Shown here: piece after piece, positions 39,258 through 59,219 of the stretch
How positions within the stretch are numbered: position 1 is the first letter of the stretch
Layout of the letters: each line of letters begins with the position of its first letter
Source of the DNA: Bacillota bacterium
GTDB taxonomy: Bacteria > Bacillota > Bacilli > Alicyclobacillales > SLC66
NCBI GenBank assembly: GCA_021805735.1
Contig: JAJZEE010000006.1
Location: 1-60,696, forward strand
DNA: 60,696 nt
Direction: 5' to 3'
Translations under genes and position numbers: made by a program
Notes under the pieces: generated by a model
Seen by the model: only the letters and a program-made list of their open reading frames with translations
Databases searched by the model: none
What the model was told of the DNA's origin: nothing

Positions 39258-39322
39258 AGATGAACGGGTTGCGCGGGCGATCCGCTGTCACATCTCCCAC
39301 AACTGCTATCAATCGCCACCCC

Positions 39323-41932
39323 CTACAGGCGCGGATCCACCGATTCGGCCTCCAGAGCCAGCGAGGCCAGCACGCATTCGTGCATGAGTTCCAGCGGTTC
39401 ACCGCGCACGAACCGCTCCACGCTCTCTACGCCGAGCGCAAACTCCATCAGCGCATGGCGCTGCTTGCGCGTCACGGACCGCTGGCGCAGGCGCGCCAGG
39501 TTCTCCGGTTCCAGATAGTCCATCCCGTAGATGATGCGCAGGTACTCGCGACCCCGCACCTTGATCGCGGGCTGCAGCAGTCCGCCCTTGGAACCCCGCG
39601 GAACAAAGACGTCCGGCTTAACCACGCACCCCTCATGACCGTCCGCCGTCAATTCCATCCACCAGCGGATGGCCGACTCTTCGGACGCCTCGTCCGTCAC
39701 GATCCTGTACTCAGTTCCGACAAACAGGTCCGACGCCTCGGCCAGTTCCCGTCCCTGTTCCATGTGCCACACATGCGGTCGGTCAAAGCAGGTCGCGCCC
39801 GTGAGCGCCAGCGTGTGAAACGGCGCGATTTGGATCCCTTGTATCCCTTCCGTGTTCCAGCAATACGCCTGAAATACTTTGGAAAATGCGTGCGTGCTGT
39901 CCAACTGCGCCTCCGCCTCGGTCATCCACCGGTCCACGGCGAGCCCCGCCGCATGCGCTCGTCGGAGATCCGTGAGGCGGTGCTCGCGGTCCAACTGCGC
40001 CATCGCGGCGACATGCGCGTACTGCCGTTCGATCAAGTCCCGCGCCTTAAGGTTCCACGGCATAATCTCCGCGTCCAACAGCACCAGATCCGTCTCATGG
40101 CGCACAAAATATCCTGCCTGCGTCAGATCCCGATGCAATCGCGCCAGCACTTGGTCGCGCAGTTCGCGCGCGAAAAACGGCCGACCGGTCCGCGTCTGGA
40201 TCGTTCCCAGCGTCGCCCGCCCGACATGGCGCCGTCCAGCCTCCTCGTCGGCAAACAGAAGCAGCACCGCCCGGCTGCCCATGTGTTTTTCTTCCACGAC
40301 CAGCGTCGTCACACCCTGCTCCCGGTAGTAACGAAACGCCTCGCGCGGGTGTTCCAGCCACCCCGGAAGAGCGGACGACTCCGGCGACGGACTCATCGTC
40401 GGCGGCACGTACACCATTTCCTCCAGAGGCGCCGCAAATCGCGACACGATTTCCAAAGCGGCCCGCGCGTGCTCAGGTCGGATCTTCACGACGCCCCGAT
40501 GAATGCTCGTCTCCACTTGAAAGCCGTCCACGAAACGGCCGACGTCAGGCGGTCGGAACCGCTCGATGTGACCGCGCGACAAGGGAGACTCGGTTGCGCC
40601 GACGTAGTCGCGATGCGCCTTGACGGAGACCAACTCCCGCTCTGGAAAGCGAAAAGCTGTGAGAGCGCCTCCGAACACCACGCCCTGATCGATATTCACG
40701 GTTCGCTCTATCACCAATGGCTCTTGGCGCGGGTCGTGACCCCACACGATCCACTCCGGGGACGCATGCTCGCGAAACCAGTCGCGACGGATCGGCCGAC
40801 CACCTTCGTCCATGCCCTCCACATCGCCGTACCGGCAAAAGTCGCGAATCTGGTCCGAGTTCCGTCCGATGTAGGCATCACGGATGCCAGCATGCACCGC
40901 GACGACCTGCGGCCAGCCGTCTCGCGTAAAGACGAGATGCGACGGCGCCGTCAGAAGAAAATTCCGCAGCCTGGCGCGCAGCCGCTCTGTTTCCTCCTGG
41001 CCATGCGTCCGCTCGTACTGCGCAAACTCCTCCGCCACTTTCTCGTCGCCGTGTGTCAGCGTCACGTTTCGGCCGTCGAGCCAACGGGCGATCTTCCACC
41101 CGTGGTTGCTGTCGATCATGTACGCGGCGTCCGCCTCGACATGGTCCACAGCAAACCGCATCGCGGGCAGCGACTGCGGTCCGCGGCTCATGACGTCCCC
41201 CACGGACACAAAGCGGCGTCCCTGCGGATGCCGGTACACGCCGGACTCATCCGGCGCGTATCCGAGGCGCGTCAGCAGTTCTATCCACTCGTCCATGCAT
41301 CCGTGCACATCCCCGATGAAGTCCAGACCGTCCGACACCTCGTGCACCAGTGGGTTGCCAAGCCGCACAAACTCGCACTCGTTCAGGTCCCGCTCGCTCA
41401 GCACATGCACCGCAGCGAAACTCTCCGTTTTCAGCGAGCGCAGGTGACGCCTGAACTGCTCCGACTGCTGCCGCACGCGCTGCTTGCCCCGCGGGTATGC
41501 GCGGGCCGCGTCGCGCGCCAGCAGAGTCGCAAGAGGCACATCCAGCGCGATGGCCATCGTCGGCACGTGGTGGTCGCGTGCGATACGCGCGAACCGCGCG
41601 CGGTCTTCCGGCCACAGATTGGTCGCATCGATCACCGTCAGCCTGTCAAGCGCCGCTCGGGCCCGCACGATCTCCCCCATGACGGCAAACGCCTCGTCCG
41701 TCACTCGCCGATACCGCTCGCGCGCGCTCTGCGCCTGCTGCCTCCCCAGGCCCTCCATGCCGATATGCTCGACGTCTGCGACCGCCACTCGGTACTGGTC
41801 CGAACCCGCGATCTCCGACAGCCGCAGCGTACCGGCTGCGACAAGCTTCGCCAACAGCGTGCTCTTACCGCTTCCCGACGCCCCGACAAGCAGCACGATC
41901 CCGGCATGCGGAAGCGATATGCATTTAGCCAC
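39323..41932 (-). CDS. pnkp: Bacterial polynucleotide kinase-phosphatase-adenylyltransferase
   Basis: RNA end-healing and sealing enzyme of 869 aa, close to the 870 aa of the Clostridium thermocellum protein. Kinase domain (1-170) has the P-loop LLVGASGSGKST. Metallophosphatase domain (about 210-450) has DFIGDVHGCMDEW, SVGDVMSRGP and MIDSNHG, where the usual GNHD is SNHG and DRG is SRG, yet Asp, His and Asn ligands remain. The ligase-like adenylyltransferase domain (about 500-869) has the nucleotidyl lysine in VVEEKHMGSRAVL. GTG at 41932 overlaps the hen1 stop by eight bases. Acts with Hen1 to repair RNA cut by ribotoxins and mark the repaired 2'-OH. Confidence 0.93.
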   Translation of the reverse strand: MAKCISLPHAGIVLLVGASGSGKSTLLAKLVAAGTLRLSEIAGSDQYRVAVADVEHIGMEGLGRQQAQSARERYRRVTDEAFAVMGEIVRARAALDRLTVIDATNLWPEDRARFARIARDHHVPTMAIALDVPLATLLARDAARAYPRGKQRVRQQSEQFRRHLRSLKTESFAAVHVLSERDLNECEFVRLGNPLVHEVSDGLDFIGDVHGCMDEWIELLTRLGYAPDESGVYRHPQGRRFVSVGDVMSRGPQSLPAMRFAVDHVEADAAYMIDSNHGWKIARWLDGRNVTLTHGDEKVAEEFAQYERTHGQEETERLRARLRNFLLTAPSHLVFTRDGWPQVVAVHAGIRDAYIGRNSDQIRDFCRYGDVEGMDEGGRPIRRDWFREHASPEWIVWGHDPRQEPLVIERTVNIDQGVVFGGALTAFRFPERELVSVKAHRDYVGATESPLSRGHIERFRPPDVGRFVDGFQVETSIHRGVVKIRPEHARAALEIVSRFAAPLEEMVYVPPTMSPSPESSALPGWLEHPREAFRYYREQGVTTLVVEEKHMGSRAVLLLFADEEAGRRHVGRATLGTIQTRTGRPFFARELRDQVLARLHRDLTQAGYFVRHETDLVLLDAEIMPWNLKARDLIERQYAHVAAMAQLDREHRLTDLRRAHAAGLAVDRWMTEAEAQLDSTHAFSKVFQAYCWNTEGIQGIQIAPFHTLALTGATCFDRPHVWHMEQGRELAEASDLFVGTEYRIVTDEASEESAIRWWMELTADGHEGCVVKPDVFVPRGSKGGLLQPAIKVRGREYLRIIYGMDYLEPENLARLRQRSVTRKQRHALMEFALGVESVERFVRGEPLELMHECVLASLALEAESVDPRL

Positions 41933-43346
41933 GCGGCGCACCCCCTCTCGTGAAAACCGCCATCTGCGTCGGCTGCCCGAACTGCTCCGAGACCTCTCCG
42001 ACACCCTCCAGCGTCACCGCATACCCATGCCGCTGCGCCCAGCGTTCGCAGTGCATGCGAAACTCATCGCGTGTCCATTCGAACCGGTGGTCGTCGTGCC
42101 GCAAGTCCGTTCTCATGCGGTAGAGCGCATTCCATTCGCGATTGGGCGTCGTGATGATCAGCGACCTCGGCGCGTACAGACCCAGCACCGTGTGCACCGC
42201 ATCCTCCACGCGCTCTTCATCGATGTGCTCAATGACCTCGCACAGAACCATCACGTCCGCTCCCGCCAGCCGCTTGTCCGCGTACAGCAGCGATCCCCAA
42301 AGGGGAGCGATGTCGGCGTCTCCTGACGGCAGGGCGGCCTCATCCAGCCGCTTCGCCATTCGGCGGTGCGCCGCCTCGGACGGTTCCACAGCCAGTATCC
42401 TGCGCACGCCAGGGATGGCCCCAAGCCGGATGGATAGCTTTCCCTCTCCGGCGCCCATGTCGACCACCACAGCGCGCTCCGGAAGCTCGGCCACCCGCTG
42501 CGCGACTGCTTCATAGCGCAGGTCATTCAGTCTGATAGACGGTCCGGACCTCACGCCGTCCCCGTCAGAAGGGGCCCGATCACCCTCCGACGGGGCGCCC
42601 GGCTCCTGCCATGACACTTCGTCAAACCACTGGAATCGCTCGCGCGCGAGCCGGATCAGATCGCCAAACCGCAGCGACCGACGGACGACGAATCCACGCA
42701 GCGGGTGCTCGGAAAGCCATCCCTCGCCAAAGCGCTCGAGGCGCTCCAGTTCAGCCTCGTCAAGGAAATGGTGCCGGTAATCGTCCATCACCGGGATCAG
42801 CACGAAGAGTTGCCGCAGTGCGCGCTGCACCGTGGCGGTTCCGCGCAGCGTCAGCCAGCGCGCCGTGGGATCGTCTCGTTCCGCCCGCGCCGACGAGACA
42901 ACCTTGCGCTCGCAGACGATCTCATATCCCAGGGGGTGAAACAAATCCGCGATGCCCTCGTCCGACAGTTCGGAGGCCACAGGTCCGAAAGACAGCGTCA
43001 TGGCAAACGGGTGATTCACCCACCCGCGATAGTCCTCTTGACAGCGGCCGCTTAGCGCGGTGGCAAGCGCCTGTCGAGCGAAGGAGCAAAACAGGCTGCT
43101 TATGGCAAACTGCCTGTCATTGATGTGGTGCGTGATGTCATAGGAATCGGGACTGCCTGTCACCAGTTCGATCGGATCCGGCGTGACATACAGCACCGCC
43201 TCCGCCTCCGTCGGAGCACATACAGGATAAAAGAGACGGACTCGATGGCCTTTCTCCTGACGGTCGTATAGGTTGGCGGGGTTCTTGGCGAGCAAAAAGG
43301 AGAGGATATCTGCGCCCTCTCCGGTGACGCGAATCGACAGTTGCAT
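41925..43346 (-). CDS. hen1: 3' terminal RNA ribose 2'-O-methyltransferase Hen1
   Basis: Protein of 473 aa. The N-terminal half activates ligation by Pnkp. The C-terminal methyltransferase (about 260-470) carries the SAM loop VVDMGAGEGKLSIRLG and the Hen1 metal site LCEVIEHIDEERVE, followed by ITTPNREWN and HDDHRFEWTRDEF. It methylates the 2'-OH at the repair junction before ligation, preventing re-cleavage at the same site. First gene of a two-gene operon with an extended -10 promoter upstream. Confidence 0.93.
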   Translation of the reverse strand: MQLSIRVTGEGADILSFLLAKNPANLYDRQEKGHRVRLFYPVCAPTEAEAVLYVTPDPIELVTGSPDSYDITHHINDRQFAISSLFCSFARQALATALSGRCQEDYRGWVNHPFAMTLSFGPVASELSDEGIADLFHPLGYEIVCERKVVSSARAERDDPTARWLTLRGTATVQRALRQLFVLIPVMDDYRHHFLDEAELERLERFGEGWLSEHPLRGFVVRRSLRFGDLIRLARERFQWFDEVSWQEPGAPSEGDRAPSDGDGVRSGPSIRLNDLRYEAVAQRVAELPERAVVVDMGAGEGKLSIRLGAIPGVRRILAVEPSEAAHRRMAKRLDEAALPSGDADIAPLWGSLLYADKRLAGADVMVLCEVIEHIDEERVEDAVHTVLGLYAPRSLIITTPNREWNALYRMRTDLRHDDHRFEWTRDEFRMHCERWAQRHGYAVTLEGVGEVSEQFGQPTQMAVFTRGGAPRG

Positions 43347-54928: not shown

Positions 54929-55237
54929 ATGGGCGTGCCCGACGTCATTCGACCGTTGTTCCACAACTACGAACCGGACAGTCTCGATCTGGACCGCGAT
55001 TGGAAGCTCGTCATCAAGACGATTATGCAAGGCGGAGAATGGGAGCAAATCCATTGGGCGGCCCAATACTATGGAAGAGAGAAATTTGAGGAAGTCCTCC
55101 GGTCGGATCTGGAGGGGAACCAAACGCTTGCGCGGCCTGTCGCAAATTTTTGGTCTGTGGTGCTTTGGAGAAAATCGCTTCCTCCCTTGCAAAAAGGCGA
55201 ACGCTGGCGTCCCACTCGAAAAATCCCGGGGGTGTAG
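54929..55237 (+). CDS. DUF6922-like antitoxin partner of AbiEii toxin
   Basis: Protein of 102 aa, polar and tryptophan-rich: FHNYEPDSLDLDRDWKLVIK, QGGEWEQIHWAAQYYGREKF and NFWSVVLWRKS. These resemble the small DUF6922 proteins encoded before nucleotidyltransferase toxins; the assignment rests on this and on the four-base gap to the toxin gene. GAGGAG lies 10 nt before the ATG. Predicted cytoplasmic antitoxin or regulator. Confidence 0.72.
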   Translation: MGVPDVIRPLFHNYEPDSLDLDRDWKLVIKTIMQGGEWEQIHWAAQYYGREKFEEVLRSDLEGNQTLARPVANFWSVVLWRKSLPPLQKGERWRPTRKIPGV

Positions 55238-55241
55238 CGGC

Positions 55242-55913
55242 ATGATTTCTTGGGACAGCATCGATCCGAAGGCTGCGCATGTGTTGAAGCGGTTCAAGGA
55301 TACGGGTCTCATGGAGAAGTTCTATTTGTCGGGCGGCACTGCGTTAGCCTTGCAATTAGGGCATCGAGTTTCTGTTGATCTCGATTTTTTTAGCCAGAAA
55401 TCATTACACAAAATCCAAACTGAGGAGATCATGACCGCGCTCGAGAAGACATTTCCACAAACTAAACTGCCCGTTTCATTCCGCGCGGCGGATCAAATCT
55501 GGTTGGAGATTGAGGAGGTCAAAACGACGTTCCTGGCGTACCCCTTTGAGCGGAAACATCCGCTTATACGCGCCGATGGCATCCTGCTTGCTGATGTTCG
55601 AGATATCGCTCTGCAAAAGGCGTTTGCCGTTGGGAGAAGGGCCGCGGCTCGCGACTACGTTGATCTGGCTTGCATTCTGCGCAGCGGTGCGACGACTCTC
55701 GAAGAAATCAATGCCGATGCCCGCGAAGTGTTTGTCGAAGACGAAGAGCGTCTGTTTTCACCAAGATTGTTCATGCAGCAGTTGGTGTATACCGAGGATC
55801 TGGAGGATAGAGACGCCGTCATCCGATTGATGCGCGGTTCGTATGATTTTGACAGCCTGATCGACGAGTTGCGTCTCGCAACGGGCCAAACAGGAGCTAG
55901 ACTGTGGTCATGA
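55242..55913 (+). CDS. Nucleotidyltransferase, AbiEii/AbiGii toxin family
   Basis: Protein of 223 aa. The nucleotidyltransferase motif FYLSGGTALALQLGHR plus VSVDLDFFS (G-S/G-x9-D-x-D) lies at about 26-50, and RDIALQKAFAVGRRAAARDY (Lys, Arg-Asp-x-x-Asp) at about 125-145. Such enzymes add nucleotides to tRNA or proteins and cause growth arrest, giving phage defence in AbiE systems. GGGGGTG precedes the ATG. It forms a compact operon with the 102-aa gene. Confidence 0.85.
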   Translation: MISWDSIDPKAAHVLKRFKDTGLMEKFYLSGGTALALQLGHRVSVDLDFFSQKSLHKIQTEEIMTALEKTFPQTKLPVSFRAADQIWLEIEEVKTTFLAYPFERKHPLIRADGILLADVRDIALQKAFAVGRRAAARDYVDLACILRSGATTLEEINADAREVFVEDEERLFSPRLFMQQLVYTEDLEDRDAVIRLMRGSYDFDSLIDELRLATGQTGARLWS

Positions 55914-56250: not shown

Positions 56251-56312
56251 CACTCTTATCGACCGAATGTGCGTAGTGGTAGTTGACGTGACATGGCCTC
56301 CCGAACGCGCGT

Positions 56313-59219
56313 TTATCGAACCCGCAACGTCCATCCGGCGGTTTGTGCATAAAAGACTTCCTGCACCGCCGCGGGGATCTCTCCGGAGATTCGCACCGCC
56401 ACGGTTTTGTCCGCCAGAAACACACTGGGTTGGGCGGTCATGGGAATACCCGCCTTGCGCAGCAAGTGATCGACGAGCGCCACGAGGGCTTGCTGGTTGA
56501 CACTTTGCGCCACCTGCACCGGAACGCCGATCTGTTTGAAGCACGCCTTCAGCCATTCACCATGGGTGTTCCCCAATTCCGGAGTCAAGAATCCCAGTTC
56601 CACACGATCTCCATACCAGGATTTGCGATATAGTGCAATGTTTCGTTGCTTCGCCTCGTGCTCGATCCACGTCAACGCATCGTGCATCGTCATCGCGCCG
56701 GGTTTTACCGGACGGTCTTGCCCACTGCTTTCGTCCGTCGAACGAAGCCGCAATTCCCATCCGGTCTCCCTGTGAAACGCTGTTTTCGCCGCTTCCCAAG
56801 CCGGGCCAGTTCCGTCCGTCCTGACCTCCACTGATTTGTGAGCCGGATGCAGGGATGGTTGAGCCAGCACGCGTCCGCCCGCTTGCTCCATGCATGTATG
56901 AACTGCGATCGAGAGTTGCGTCTGGTTGGTGGTCGTGCCCCACTCGACGCGCCAACCGGTCTCGCGTTCAATGTGCTCTTCGCATGCCTTGGCCTCGGGG
57001 GTGTTGATCACTGCGTCCGGGAACCACACGATGACCCGCAGAATTCCGGCCGCCGGATCCACGCCAACTTTGGACACGTGAAAGGATTCCGGCAGGCGTG
57101 CCTTGGCGGCCCGCATGGCATCGTTTTGCTCCACGCGTGTCGAAGAGGTCGGCGACGAGGCTTTCAGTTGCAACGAGACCGCACCGCCAACGATCTGTGT
57201 CAACTCGGTCTCCACTGCGGAACGAACCGCATCCGACACTTGGCCATACACGGGCATGACGATGCGTTGTTCGTCTGTAAACAGTTGCGGTCCGCCAACG
57301 GTCACCGCGACACCCTGCTTTTGCAACATCCGTTCGACGTGGTGAATCAGCGTCGGTGCGTGGACAAACGGTTCAATGCGGTACGGCCATCCGTCCCAAG
57401 CGCGATCTTCGACCTGTTTGCGCAGATCCAATGGAATCGCCCAGGGAAAAGCCAGAAACACCCGATGTTGTTTGTTCCGACGATCCGCCTCAATCTTACG
57501 AAGTCCGTAAGGTTCCAACTTCTGCGCGATCCAATCCTGTCCTGTGGCATCCGGGGGCACGACCGTGCCGCGCTGTCGGGCCATATGGTATGCAATGCGT
57601 TCAGTCGGCCGGTATCCGTACAAGCGATTCTCTGCCGCGCTGGCTTCTGCCGCTTCCCACAGACCAAGCAGGTAGCGACCGGGAAGTTCCCCCGAAGGCA
57701 CCCGCCCCAGCGTCTCCAATACACCGGCGCTCTCCGTTTGAACTACCGTCTGATTCCACTGCTCAATGGAGACCGTCTCTCCCTCGATGGCTCGAATTAC
57801 ACCCAACGCCAGCGAATCTTCCCATACGCATAACGCAATCTGTCCGGGTCGAACGAGTCCGCGTATCGGCTTTCTTCGGGTTTTTGGGACGACTTGCAAC
57901 GTGTCGCCAATGCGGGGTATCTGCACGACACACGAGGCCAGTTCCCGCTTTAGAGCCTGCTTCGCCTCGTCATCGCCATGCACCAGCCAGACCGCTTCCG
58001 GTTCGACCTGTTGGACCAACTGGGCCAGTTCGCGGCGGTCAGCATGCGCGGACAAGCCATACAATTCGACGCGCCCCTTCACGGAGACGACCCGGTCCGG
58101 CAGGATCCAGCGCCGCTCCCCGACGGGTTGCTCGACGAGCCGAAGCAGTTGCCGGCCCGGAGACTCCTCGTCCTGGTAGCCACACAAAAAGACGGCGTTT
58201 TGTTCGTTTCCCATGATACCCTGCGCATACTGCACGGACGGACCGCCGCTCAGCATGCCGGACGAACTGATGATACAGGCCGGCTTGCCCTGAAGAACTT
58301 GCTGCCGTTCTTCCCCGCGGCGAATGAACTGGACGTCATCAAGCGGAAACAGGCGGCCTTTTTCATGCAGCTTGCGCTTGGCGGCGCCGCGCAGCAGGTG
58401 CGGATAGGATTCGTACACCGGACAGATCGAGCGCACCAAGCCATCCACCACGATCGGGAATTTGGGAATAGAGCGATTGTGCGCCATTGCGTCCAGCAGA
58501 ATCATCAGCACTTCTTGCGCCCGCCCGACGGCGAATGCGGGGATCAGAACGAATCCCCCTCCCTCGATCACCTGGGACACCTGCTCGACGAGAGCGCGTT
58601 CTTGCAACGCCCGCGAATCGTGCAGACGCGCGCCGTACGTCGATTCCGTAATCACTACATCGTACGTGTCCCCTTTGGCGATATGCGCTCCTCCGATCAG
58701 TCGGCCCGGTGTGATCGACACGTCTCCGGTGAACAGGACGCGTCCTTCGTCCGTCGCAAAACCGATGGCCACCGCCCCGAGAATATGGCCGGCGGTGTAC
58801 GTTGCAATCTGGATGTCGTTCCACTCCAGCGTGCGATCCTGCGGGAGGATGCGTACACGATCCCACAGGGCGCTAAACTGCGCCTCCGTGAAAAGGGCCG
58901 TCTTCCCTTCGGTCTCCCCCAAGCGCAAGGCATCCTGCAACATGATCCGTACGATGTCTACCGTGGGCGCCGTCATGAAAACCGGTGCATCCGGGTACAG
59001 GTGGGAAACGGTCGGCAGCGCGCCAATGTGGTCGTGATGGGCGTGGGTGATGAAGATGGCCTGGATGTGAGCCTGCTCCCGTTCCAGGACGGCCAGATCC
59101 GGGAGCGGGTTTTGCTCGTCCATGCGAGCGCCGGCGTCAACGAGCCACTGCGCCTGTTGTGTCCGAAACCAAAGGCAGGTGGCGCCAATGTCGGCGCCGC
59201 CGAGAAAGGTGACTTGCAT
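56313..59219 (-). CDS. Beta-CASP metallo-beta-lactamase nuclease with triple-repeat extension
   Basis: Protein of 968 aa. Metallo-beta-lactamase core with FITHAHHDHIGALP (about 56-69), GHILGAVAIGF (about 145), VLFTGDVSIT (about 160) and a beta-CASP cap with IPAFAVGRAQEV (about 225); the closing histidines are in YGLSAHADRRELAQL (about 395) and LVHGDDEAKQAL. This is an RNA-processing exo/endonuclease of the CPSF-73/RNase J superfamily. Residues ~470-968 are extra: three units of ~108-114 residues (573-686, 713-826, 861-968) share V-x-x-x-FP, AG-x-x-x-x-x-QPS(L/V) and ETGW-x-LR-(L/V)-(R/K). No known domain is recognised. GAGGAG precedes the ATG. Confidence 0.85.
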   Translation of the reverse strand: MQVTFLGGADIGATCLWFRTQQAQWLVDAGARMDEQNPLPDLAVLEREQAHIQAIFITHAHHDHIGALPTVSHLYPDAPVFMTAPTVDIVRIMLQDALRLGETEGKTALFTEAQFSALWDRVRILPQDRTLEWNDIQIATYTAGHILGAVAIGFATDEGRVLFTGDVSITPGRLIGGAHIAKGDTYDVVITESTYGARLHDSRALQERALVEQVSQVIEGGGFVLIPAFAVGRAQEVLMILLDAMAHNRSIPKFPIVVDGLVRSICPVYESYPHLLRGAAKRKLHEKGRLFPLDDVQFIRRGEERQQVLQGKPACIISSSGMLSGGPSVQYAQGIMGNEQNAVFLCGYQDEESPGRQLLRLVEQPVGERRWILPDRVVSVKGRVELYGLSAHADRRELAQLVQQVEPEAVWLVHGDDEAKQALKRELASCVVQIPRIGDTLQVVPKTRRKPIRGLVRPGQIALCVWEDSLALGVIRAIEGETVSIEQWNQTVVQTESAGVLETLGRVPSGELPGRYLLGLWEAAEASAAENRLYGYRPTERIAYHMARQRGTVVPPDATGQDWIAQKLEPYGLRKIEADRRNKQHRVFLAFPWAIPLDLRKQVEDRAWDGWPYRIEPFVHAPTLIHHVERMLQKQGVAVTVGGPQLFTDEQRIVMPVYGQVSDAVRSAVETELTQIVGGAVSLQLKASSPTSSTRVEQNDAMRAAKARLPESFHVSKVGVDPAAGILRVIVWFPDAVINTPEAKACEEHIERETGWRVEWGTTTNQTQLSIAVHTCMEQAGGRVLAQPSLHPAHKSVEVRTDGTGPAWEAAKTAFHRETGWELRLRSTDESSGQDRPVKPGAMTMHDALTWIEHEAKQRNIALYRKSWYGDRVELGFLTPELGNTHGEWLKACFKQIGVPVQVAQSVNQQALVALVDHLLRKAGIPMTAQPSVFLADKTVAVRISGEIPAAVQEVFYAQTAGWTLRVR

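Follow-up and report, generated by a model that had tools for sequence, protein, structure and literature searches.

A beta-CASP nuclease of Bacillota with a C-terminal arm of six predicted KH domains

Introduction

The closest described relative of the protein reported here is the archaeal ribonuclease aCPSF1/FttA (TIGR03675, arCOG00543; PDB 2ycb, 2xr1, 3af5, 9bct). It is nearly universal in archaea and combines an MBL, beta-CASP and RMMBL core with a tandem pair of type II KH domains, which is N-terminal (PMC3095777). This pair binds U-rich RNA, and termination requires it: in Methanococcus, its deletion abolishes normal termination (PMC8716108). In FttA, KH1 and KH2 touch U-rich RNA at two stretches of three nucleotides, or about 3 nt for each KH domain (PMC11616081). 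The KHa domain of an aCPSF1 orthologue lacks the GxxG motif, and paired KH domains on beta-CASP nucleases have been described as exclusive to aCPSF1 orthologues of archaea (PMC3095777). The eukaryotic 3'-end nucleases CPSF73 and INTS11 share the core and the motif set and also carry extra domains after the core, but these are dimerisation sequences and not KH arrays (PMC11616081). Bacterial beta-CASP RNases without KH domains, such as TTHA0252, RNase J and the Herpetosiphon, Nostoc and Deinococcus plasmid homologues, have the core fold in common with all of these.

Here we analysed a gene in a 60,696-nucleotide stretch of a Bacillota genome (contig JAJZEE010000006.1; hereafter the window). Its product has the core of aCPSF1/FttA with all catalytic motifs, but differs in what surrounds it. 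The core starts at residue 1, and instead of two N-terminal KH domains there are, across the family, four to six putative ones on the C-terminal side, with a small beta-barrel and a helical linker added; the protein is bacterial and patchy in occurrence. The first-pass annotation of this DNA had stated that known relatives end in KH domains, which is incorrect for the N-terminal pair of aCPSF1. With members in many Bacillota families, the gene represents a bacterial protein family in which four to six predicted KH domains follow this core instead of preceding it, and it is a candidate for a sequence-selective bacterial RNase.

Results and discussion

A predicted nuclease core of the aCPSF1 type

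The longest frame at the locus is a 968-aa ORF on the minus strand (Table 1), exactly as given in the first-pass annotation, and AAGAGGAG lies a few bases 5' of its ATG. Full-length orthologues were present in 7 of the 41 genomes searched (the window's own genome counted), and full-length relatives from other genomes of the same family and order were 94-95%, 74% and 49-50% identical to it. Since it is the longest frame at this position and has full-length relatives in other genomes, the ORF is not a chance frame.

Table 1. Positions of the gene and of its predicted domains in the window.
Feature	Position	Strand	Basis
Whole gene, 968 aa, ATG start	56313..59219	-	ORF call and full-length orthologues
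MBL + beta-CASP + RMMBL nuclease core, aa 1-445	57885..59219	-	Pfam, TIGR03675, motif alignment
Small beta-barrel, five strands, aa 455-508	57696..57857	-	AlphaFold tail model, block pLDDT about 87-95
Helical hairpin, aa 509-555, clade-conserved ER..Y, after conserved LGRVP.GE motif	57555..57695	-	Model and alignment
KH-like unit 1, aa 556-619, six-unit clade only	57363..57554	-	Secondary structure; profile vs unit 3 95.3%
KH-like unit 2, aa 620-690, six-unit clade only	57150..57362	-	Secondary structure; profile vs unit 6 74.8%
KH-like unit 3, aa 694-764, nearest aCPSF1 KHb	56928..57140	-	hhalign 93.3% over 59 columns; pLDDT 94.8
KH-like unit 4, aa 765-830	56730..56927	-	Profile comparison, AlphaFold, Foldseek
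KH-like unit 5, aa 838-907	56499..56708	-	Profile comparison, AlphaFold model, loop alignment
KH-like unit 6, aa 908-968, protein's C-terminal end	56316..56498	-	Profile comparison, AlphaFold model

Pfam identified MBL (1.2e-10), beta-CASP (3.6e-23) and RMMBL (3.3e-14) domains in the core, the Beta-Casp and RMMBL matches exceeding the Pfam cut-off. All catalytic positions were kept in the motif alignment (D28, H59, H61, D63, H64, H145, D166, E192, H392 and H414), and the core has MBL motifs 1-4 as well as beta-CASP motifs A-C, as expected of the MBL/beta-CASP ribonuclease superfamily. Motif A is E192, the same as in aCPSF1. The top family model was that of archaeal aCPSF1 (TIGR03675, 292.7 bits over aa 2-429), and the top PDB matches were aCPSF1 (2ycb, 2.9e-56) and INTS11. 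Judged by its sequence, this part of the protein is an intact MBL/beta-CASP nuclease, nearest to aCPSF1, INTS11 and CPSF73. The protein is nevertheless not an aCPSF1, since its score is below the TIGR03675 cut-off of 580.2 bits and the KH domains of that family are N-terminal.

Other families with a beta-CASP core were more distant. RNase J forms a distant branch with D at motif A, where the present protein has E192, and its model scored 47 bits against a cut-off of 400. The model of the type VII CRISPR protein Cas14 (NF045584) reached 231.7 bits, short of its cut-off of 800, and matched only aa 1-444, leaving the tail without a match. The Herpetosiphon, Nostoc and Deinococcus proteins were about 33-37% identical in the core, and none of the three tails inspected resembles a KH array.

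Fold of the C-terminal arm

No significant Pfam match was found in aa 446-968. A confident AlphaFold model was computed for this tail on an alignment of 35 relatives (mean pLDDT 86.5); in it, a five-strand barrel and a helical hairpin are followed by six units, each running helix-strand-strand-helix-strand. According to the AlphaFold secondary structure, only some units keep the short first member of the helical pair. Units 3 and 4 modelled alone gave a pLDDT of 94.8 and a pTM of 0.85; the pTM of the whole-tail model was low (0.36) and lends no support to a rigid ruler for length measurement.

When nuclease-free models were compared with the PDB by Foldseek, the best hits were the N-terminal KH domains of FttA/aCPSF1 (probability 1.00, E about 2e-5 to 4e-5); NusA came next, and the KH domains of ribosomal protein S3 ranked lower. 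NusA KH1-KH2 is likewise a tandem type II KH pair, but NusA has no nuclease and matches the arm in fold only. The likeness to aCPSF1 is one of single domains: the two KH domains of a pair are placed differently from those of the aCPSF1 pair (TMq about 0.41, rmsd about 8.7 A), and whole-pair TM-scores are near 0.4 because the inter-KH angle differs.

Profile comparisons connect the arm to the same archaeal family. Over its whole length, unit 3 matched aCPSF1 KHb with a probability of 93.3% (hhalign), against 0.2% for the reversed control, which makes the two homologous by profile. TIGR03675 matched 11 of the 35 tails after these had been stripped of the nuclease (best 4e-4), and in one orthologue its KH positions 46-143 fell on the tail. 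A HMMER comparison of the unit HMM with aCPSF1 N-termini gave a match too weak to be decisive by itself (2ycb, 0.0037), and the tail profile found nothing meaningful in the PDB by sequence. For units 1, 2, 4, 5 and 6 the KH homology runs mainly via unit 3 and each other, and units 1, 2 and 6 connect to aCPSF1 solely through other units.

Two other assignments were discarded. Weak matches of the tail to the Pfam IPP transferase and other families were scattered, mostly over 1-3 members. The ring-building domain of type III secretion systems (Foldseek rank 7 and below) has a similar topology and was rejected as a homologue because the aCPSF1 KH domains rank first and have sequence-profile support.

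By profile comparison and modelling, then, the six units belong to the type II KH domains, though none has a clear GxxG loop. AlphaFold, Foldseek and profile-profile comparison rule out the unknown fold that had been proposed for them. The first-pass annotation was correct in seeing a beta-CASP nuclease that continues into a repeated C-terminal arm. Its claim of a new architecture holds in part: the observation that it had named as a refutation, a match to a domain known from beta-CASP proteins, has largely been made for the domain type, which aCPSF1/FttA carries, but not for the copy number or the position. No Pfam or NCBIfam model covers the KH arm, and we found no description of C-terminal KH arrays on a beta-CASP nuclease in the literature searched.

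Six units in three pairs

The arm had been described as three repeats of about 110 residues (573-686, 713-826 and 861-968). The repetition is real and non-random, but the actual unit is about 60-70 aa long and occurs six times, in three pairs, and the earlier boundaries left out the first helix of every pair. By single-sequence alignment, 713-826 versus 861-968 gave z=17.6 and 573-686 versus 861-968 gave z=8.6, in both cases with 0 of 1000 shuffles scoring as high; 573-686 versus 713-826 was not significant by single-sequence alignment alone, and this relation emerges with family profiles. The proposed landmarks AGx..AQPS (about 779-788 and 923-932) and ETGWELRLR (about 818-826) are found in the second and third repeats but are absent from the first.

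With family profiles, odd units best match odd units and even units best match even units (U3~U5 98.8%, U4~U6 98.8%, U1~U3 95.3%, U2~U6 74.8%). Odd and even units are also related to each other (U3~U6 96.9%, U3~U4 94.8%), and all 15 reversed-sequence controls for unit pairs were at or below 6.7%. This pattern points to an ancestral unit that was doubled to a pair, which was then doubled again.

How the arm might act on RNA

GxxG is absent from the expected loop position in all units of the window's protein, and it is kept family-wide in no unit. Unit 5 has a family-conserved Y(K/R)(K/T)S and, in many members, a partial GxxG (G-x-x-Y/H). The net charge is between -2 and +2 per unit and -12 for the core, so the tail is not basic. 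The missing GxxG, the lack of positive charge and a KH placing unlike that of aCPSF1 are points against an RNA-binding arm. Absence of GxxG does not rule out RNA contact, however, since aCPSF1 KHa is without it while FttA KH1 and KH2 contact RNA.

We consider it probable that the protein is a bacterial beta-CASP RNase of the aCPSF1/CPSF73/INTS11 type whose C-terminal six-KH arm selects and feeds single-stranded RNA. By analogy with aCPSF1, we infer that the core cleaves RNA, that the arm binds it, and that arm and active site cooperate; the protein may well work like aCPSF1. The two-zinc MBL/beta-CASP core would cut single-stranded RNA, and the KH arm, mounted on the small beta-barrel and the helical linker, would grip several short stretches of one RNA. 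Such a grip would provide affinity and sequence preference and would feed the strand to the active site, and with six KH domains, a longer sequence or one in several parts could be held.

KH-like folds are also used for protein-protein contacts. The degenerate units might thus form an assembly arm that dimerises the enzyme or docks it on the ribosome, RNA polymerase or an RNP, without reading RNA. This is the main rival, a possible though doubtful one. In its favour, the arm is not basic, GxxG is gone from all units, and the arm takes up the place of the C-terminal dimerisation motif of aCPSF1 (PMC8716108), for which it could substitute. The ring-building type III secretion domains retrieved by Foldseek, whose fold is similar, oligomerise. 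Against an assembly role, the closest profile relative of the arm, the aCPSF1 KH region, binds RNA, and its GxxG-less KHa appears to touch RNA too; moreover, unit 5 retains the conserved Tyr/Lys and the partial G-x-x-Y.

Distribution and origin

The profile search for the spread of the unit, which the first-pass annotation had suggested, found the tail in 31 of 398 Bacillota genomes and in 8 of 59 genomes of the window's order; with the pair profile, 10 of 300 genomes of the window's class were positive. Two further families of the class also have full-length relatives (G471, G530), and the tail had no match in the plasmid and phage collections. Most members have four KH units (two pairs) after the linker, and the clade that includes the window has a third pair, giving six units. 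Member length is mostly 820-930 aa, with a few proteins of about 1,000-1,100 aa. In several four-unit members (L082 and L088 among them) the linker before the KH units resembles the winged helix of RNase II (PF25255, E about 1e-4, below the cut-off). Proteins with 0, 2, 4 and 6 KH domains form a natural series in which to test how the choice of RNA and the site of cutting by CPSF-type nucleases depend on the number and position of the KH domains.

In a tree of the core, computed without RNase J and a paralogue whose long branches had spoiled an earlier tree, the KH-tailed proteins cluster (86/85) separately from the tail-less Herpetosiphon, Nostoc and Deinococcus homologues, with a six-unit clade (100/100) and a four-unit sister (97/97). 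A single origin of the KH-tailed proteins is only suggested by this tree, because tail-less bacterial cores are thinly sampled.

The arm hardly ever occurs apart from the nuclease. The one free-standing case is a 169-aa KH pair on the minus strand in genome G685 (L173:4140-4649). It lies near a resolvase-like gene, and the 8 kb retrieved contained no beta-CASP gene. At L094:2868-5362 (G338), a one-base deletion relative to L095 leaves a nuclease ORF and a KH-tail ORF that overlap by 4 bases, which may be a sequencing error, decay or a real split.

The protein could be a bacterial functional counterpart of FttA, which would cut nascent RNA near RNA polymerase and drive transcription termination. 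It shares its core and KH type with FttA, and NusA, also KH-bearing, comes next in Foldseek. Such a role is possible but distinctly unlikely, because the occurrence is patchy at the level of order, class and phylum alike, as would not be expected of a general termination factor; furthermore, one genome has several copies, partly beside a plasmid-type recombinase (see below). A related reading also appears unlikely to us: the protein would be a cleavage-based, KH-guided RNA 3'-end or transcription-termination nuclease of Bacillota, analogous to FttA/CPSF, and its four to six KH domains would recognise a long single-stranded RNA signal and determine where the cut falls.

Genomic context and mobility

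In the window, the nuclease gene stands by itself, flanked by an MFS gene and, oppositely directed, a gene for an AbiEii-type nucleotidyltransferase. In other lineages the neighbours vary (EamA transporter, FAA hydrolase, lactate racemase, creatininase and others), and since they differ from lineage to lineage, no pathway can be read from the context. The AbiEii-type toxin gene (54929-55913, + strand; Pfam 6e-15) lies near the 3' side of the nuclease gene, and a small ORF that precedes and overlaps it may be the antitoxin. At 56299, 14 bases past the nuclease stop codon, the 94% nucleotide identity with a sister genome (G001) stops, as if the toxin-bearing flank had been exchanged or inserted at this point.

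Genome G012 has about three near-identical copies of the gene, two nearly whole and a third in contig-end pieces. The 5' side of each adjoins a plasmid-type tyrosine recombinase, with different DNA between the two, and degenerate second copies are present in G002 and G010. From the G012 copies, the recombinase and the variable DNA it follows that, in the window's clade, the gene is accessory and sometimes mobile.

We give little credence to the idea that in this clade it is mainly a mobile accessory nuclease for plasmid stability or RNA-based defence, with a KH arm for element-specific RNA recognition. The G012 copies beside the recombinase, their variable cargo including an MNT/HepT pair, and the degenerate copies would fit it. 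However, in other families the gene has contexts common to a genus, and no recombinase of this type was detected near the window gene.

The repeated segment of G012 (L033:3148-8910, L168:10880-15427 and L174:1-3249) consists of the nuclease-KH gene, a junction with variable cargo, a plasmid-type tyrosine recombinase of ~196 aa, a protein of 97 aa and an HU-like frame that is broken, and has a sharp end at CTCATGACCGACC. In one copy the junction holds the MNT/HepT pair; otherwise it contains about 1.1 kb of other DNA or is empty. The second copy in G002 is a decayed KH tail (L167:11701-12951) on a contig that begins with a plasmid-type recombinase. Elsewhere in the window, two ORFs of ~890 aa lie on opposite strands at 39260-42004 and overlap almost fully; at least one of them is probably a shadow frame.
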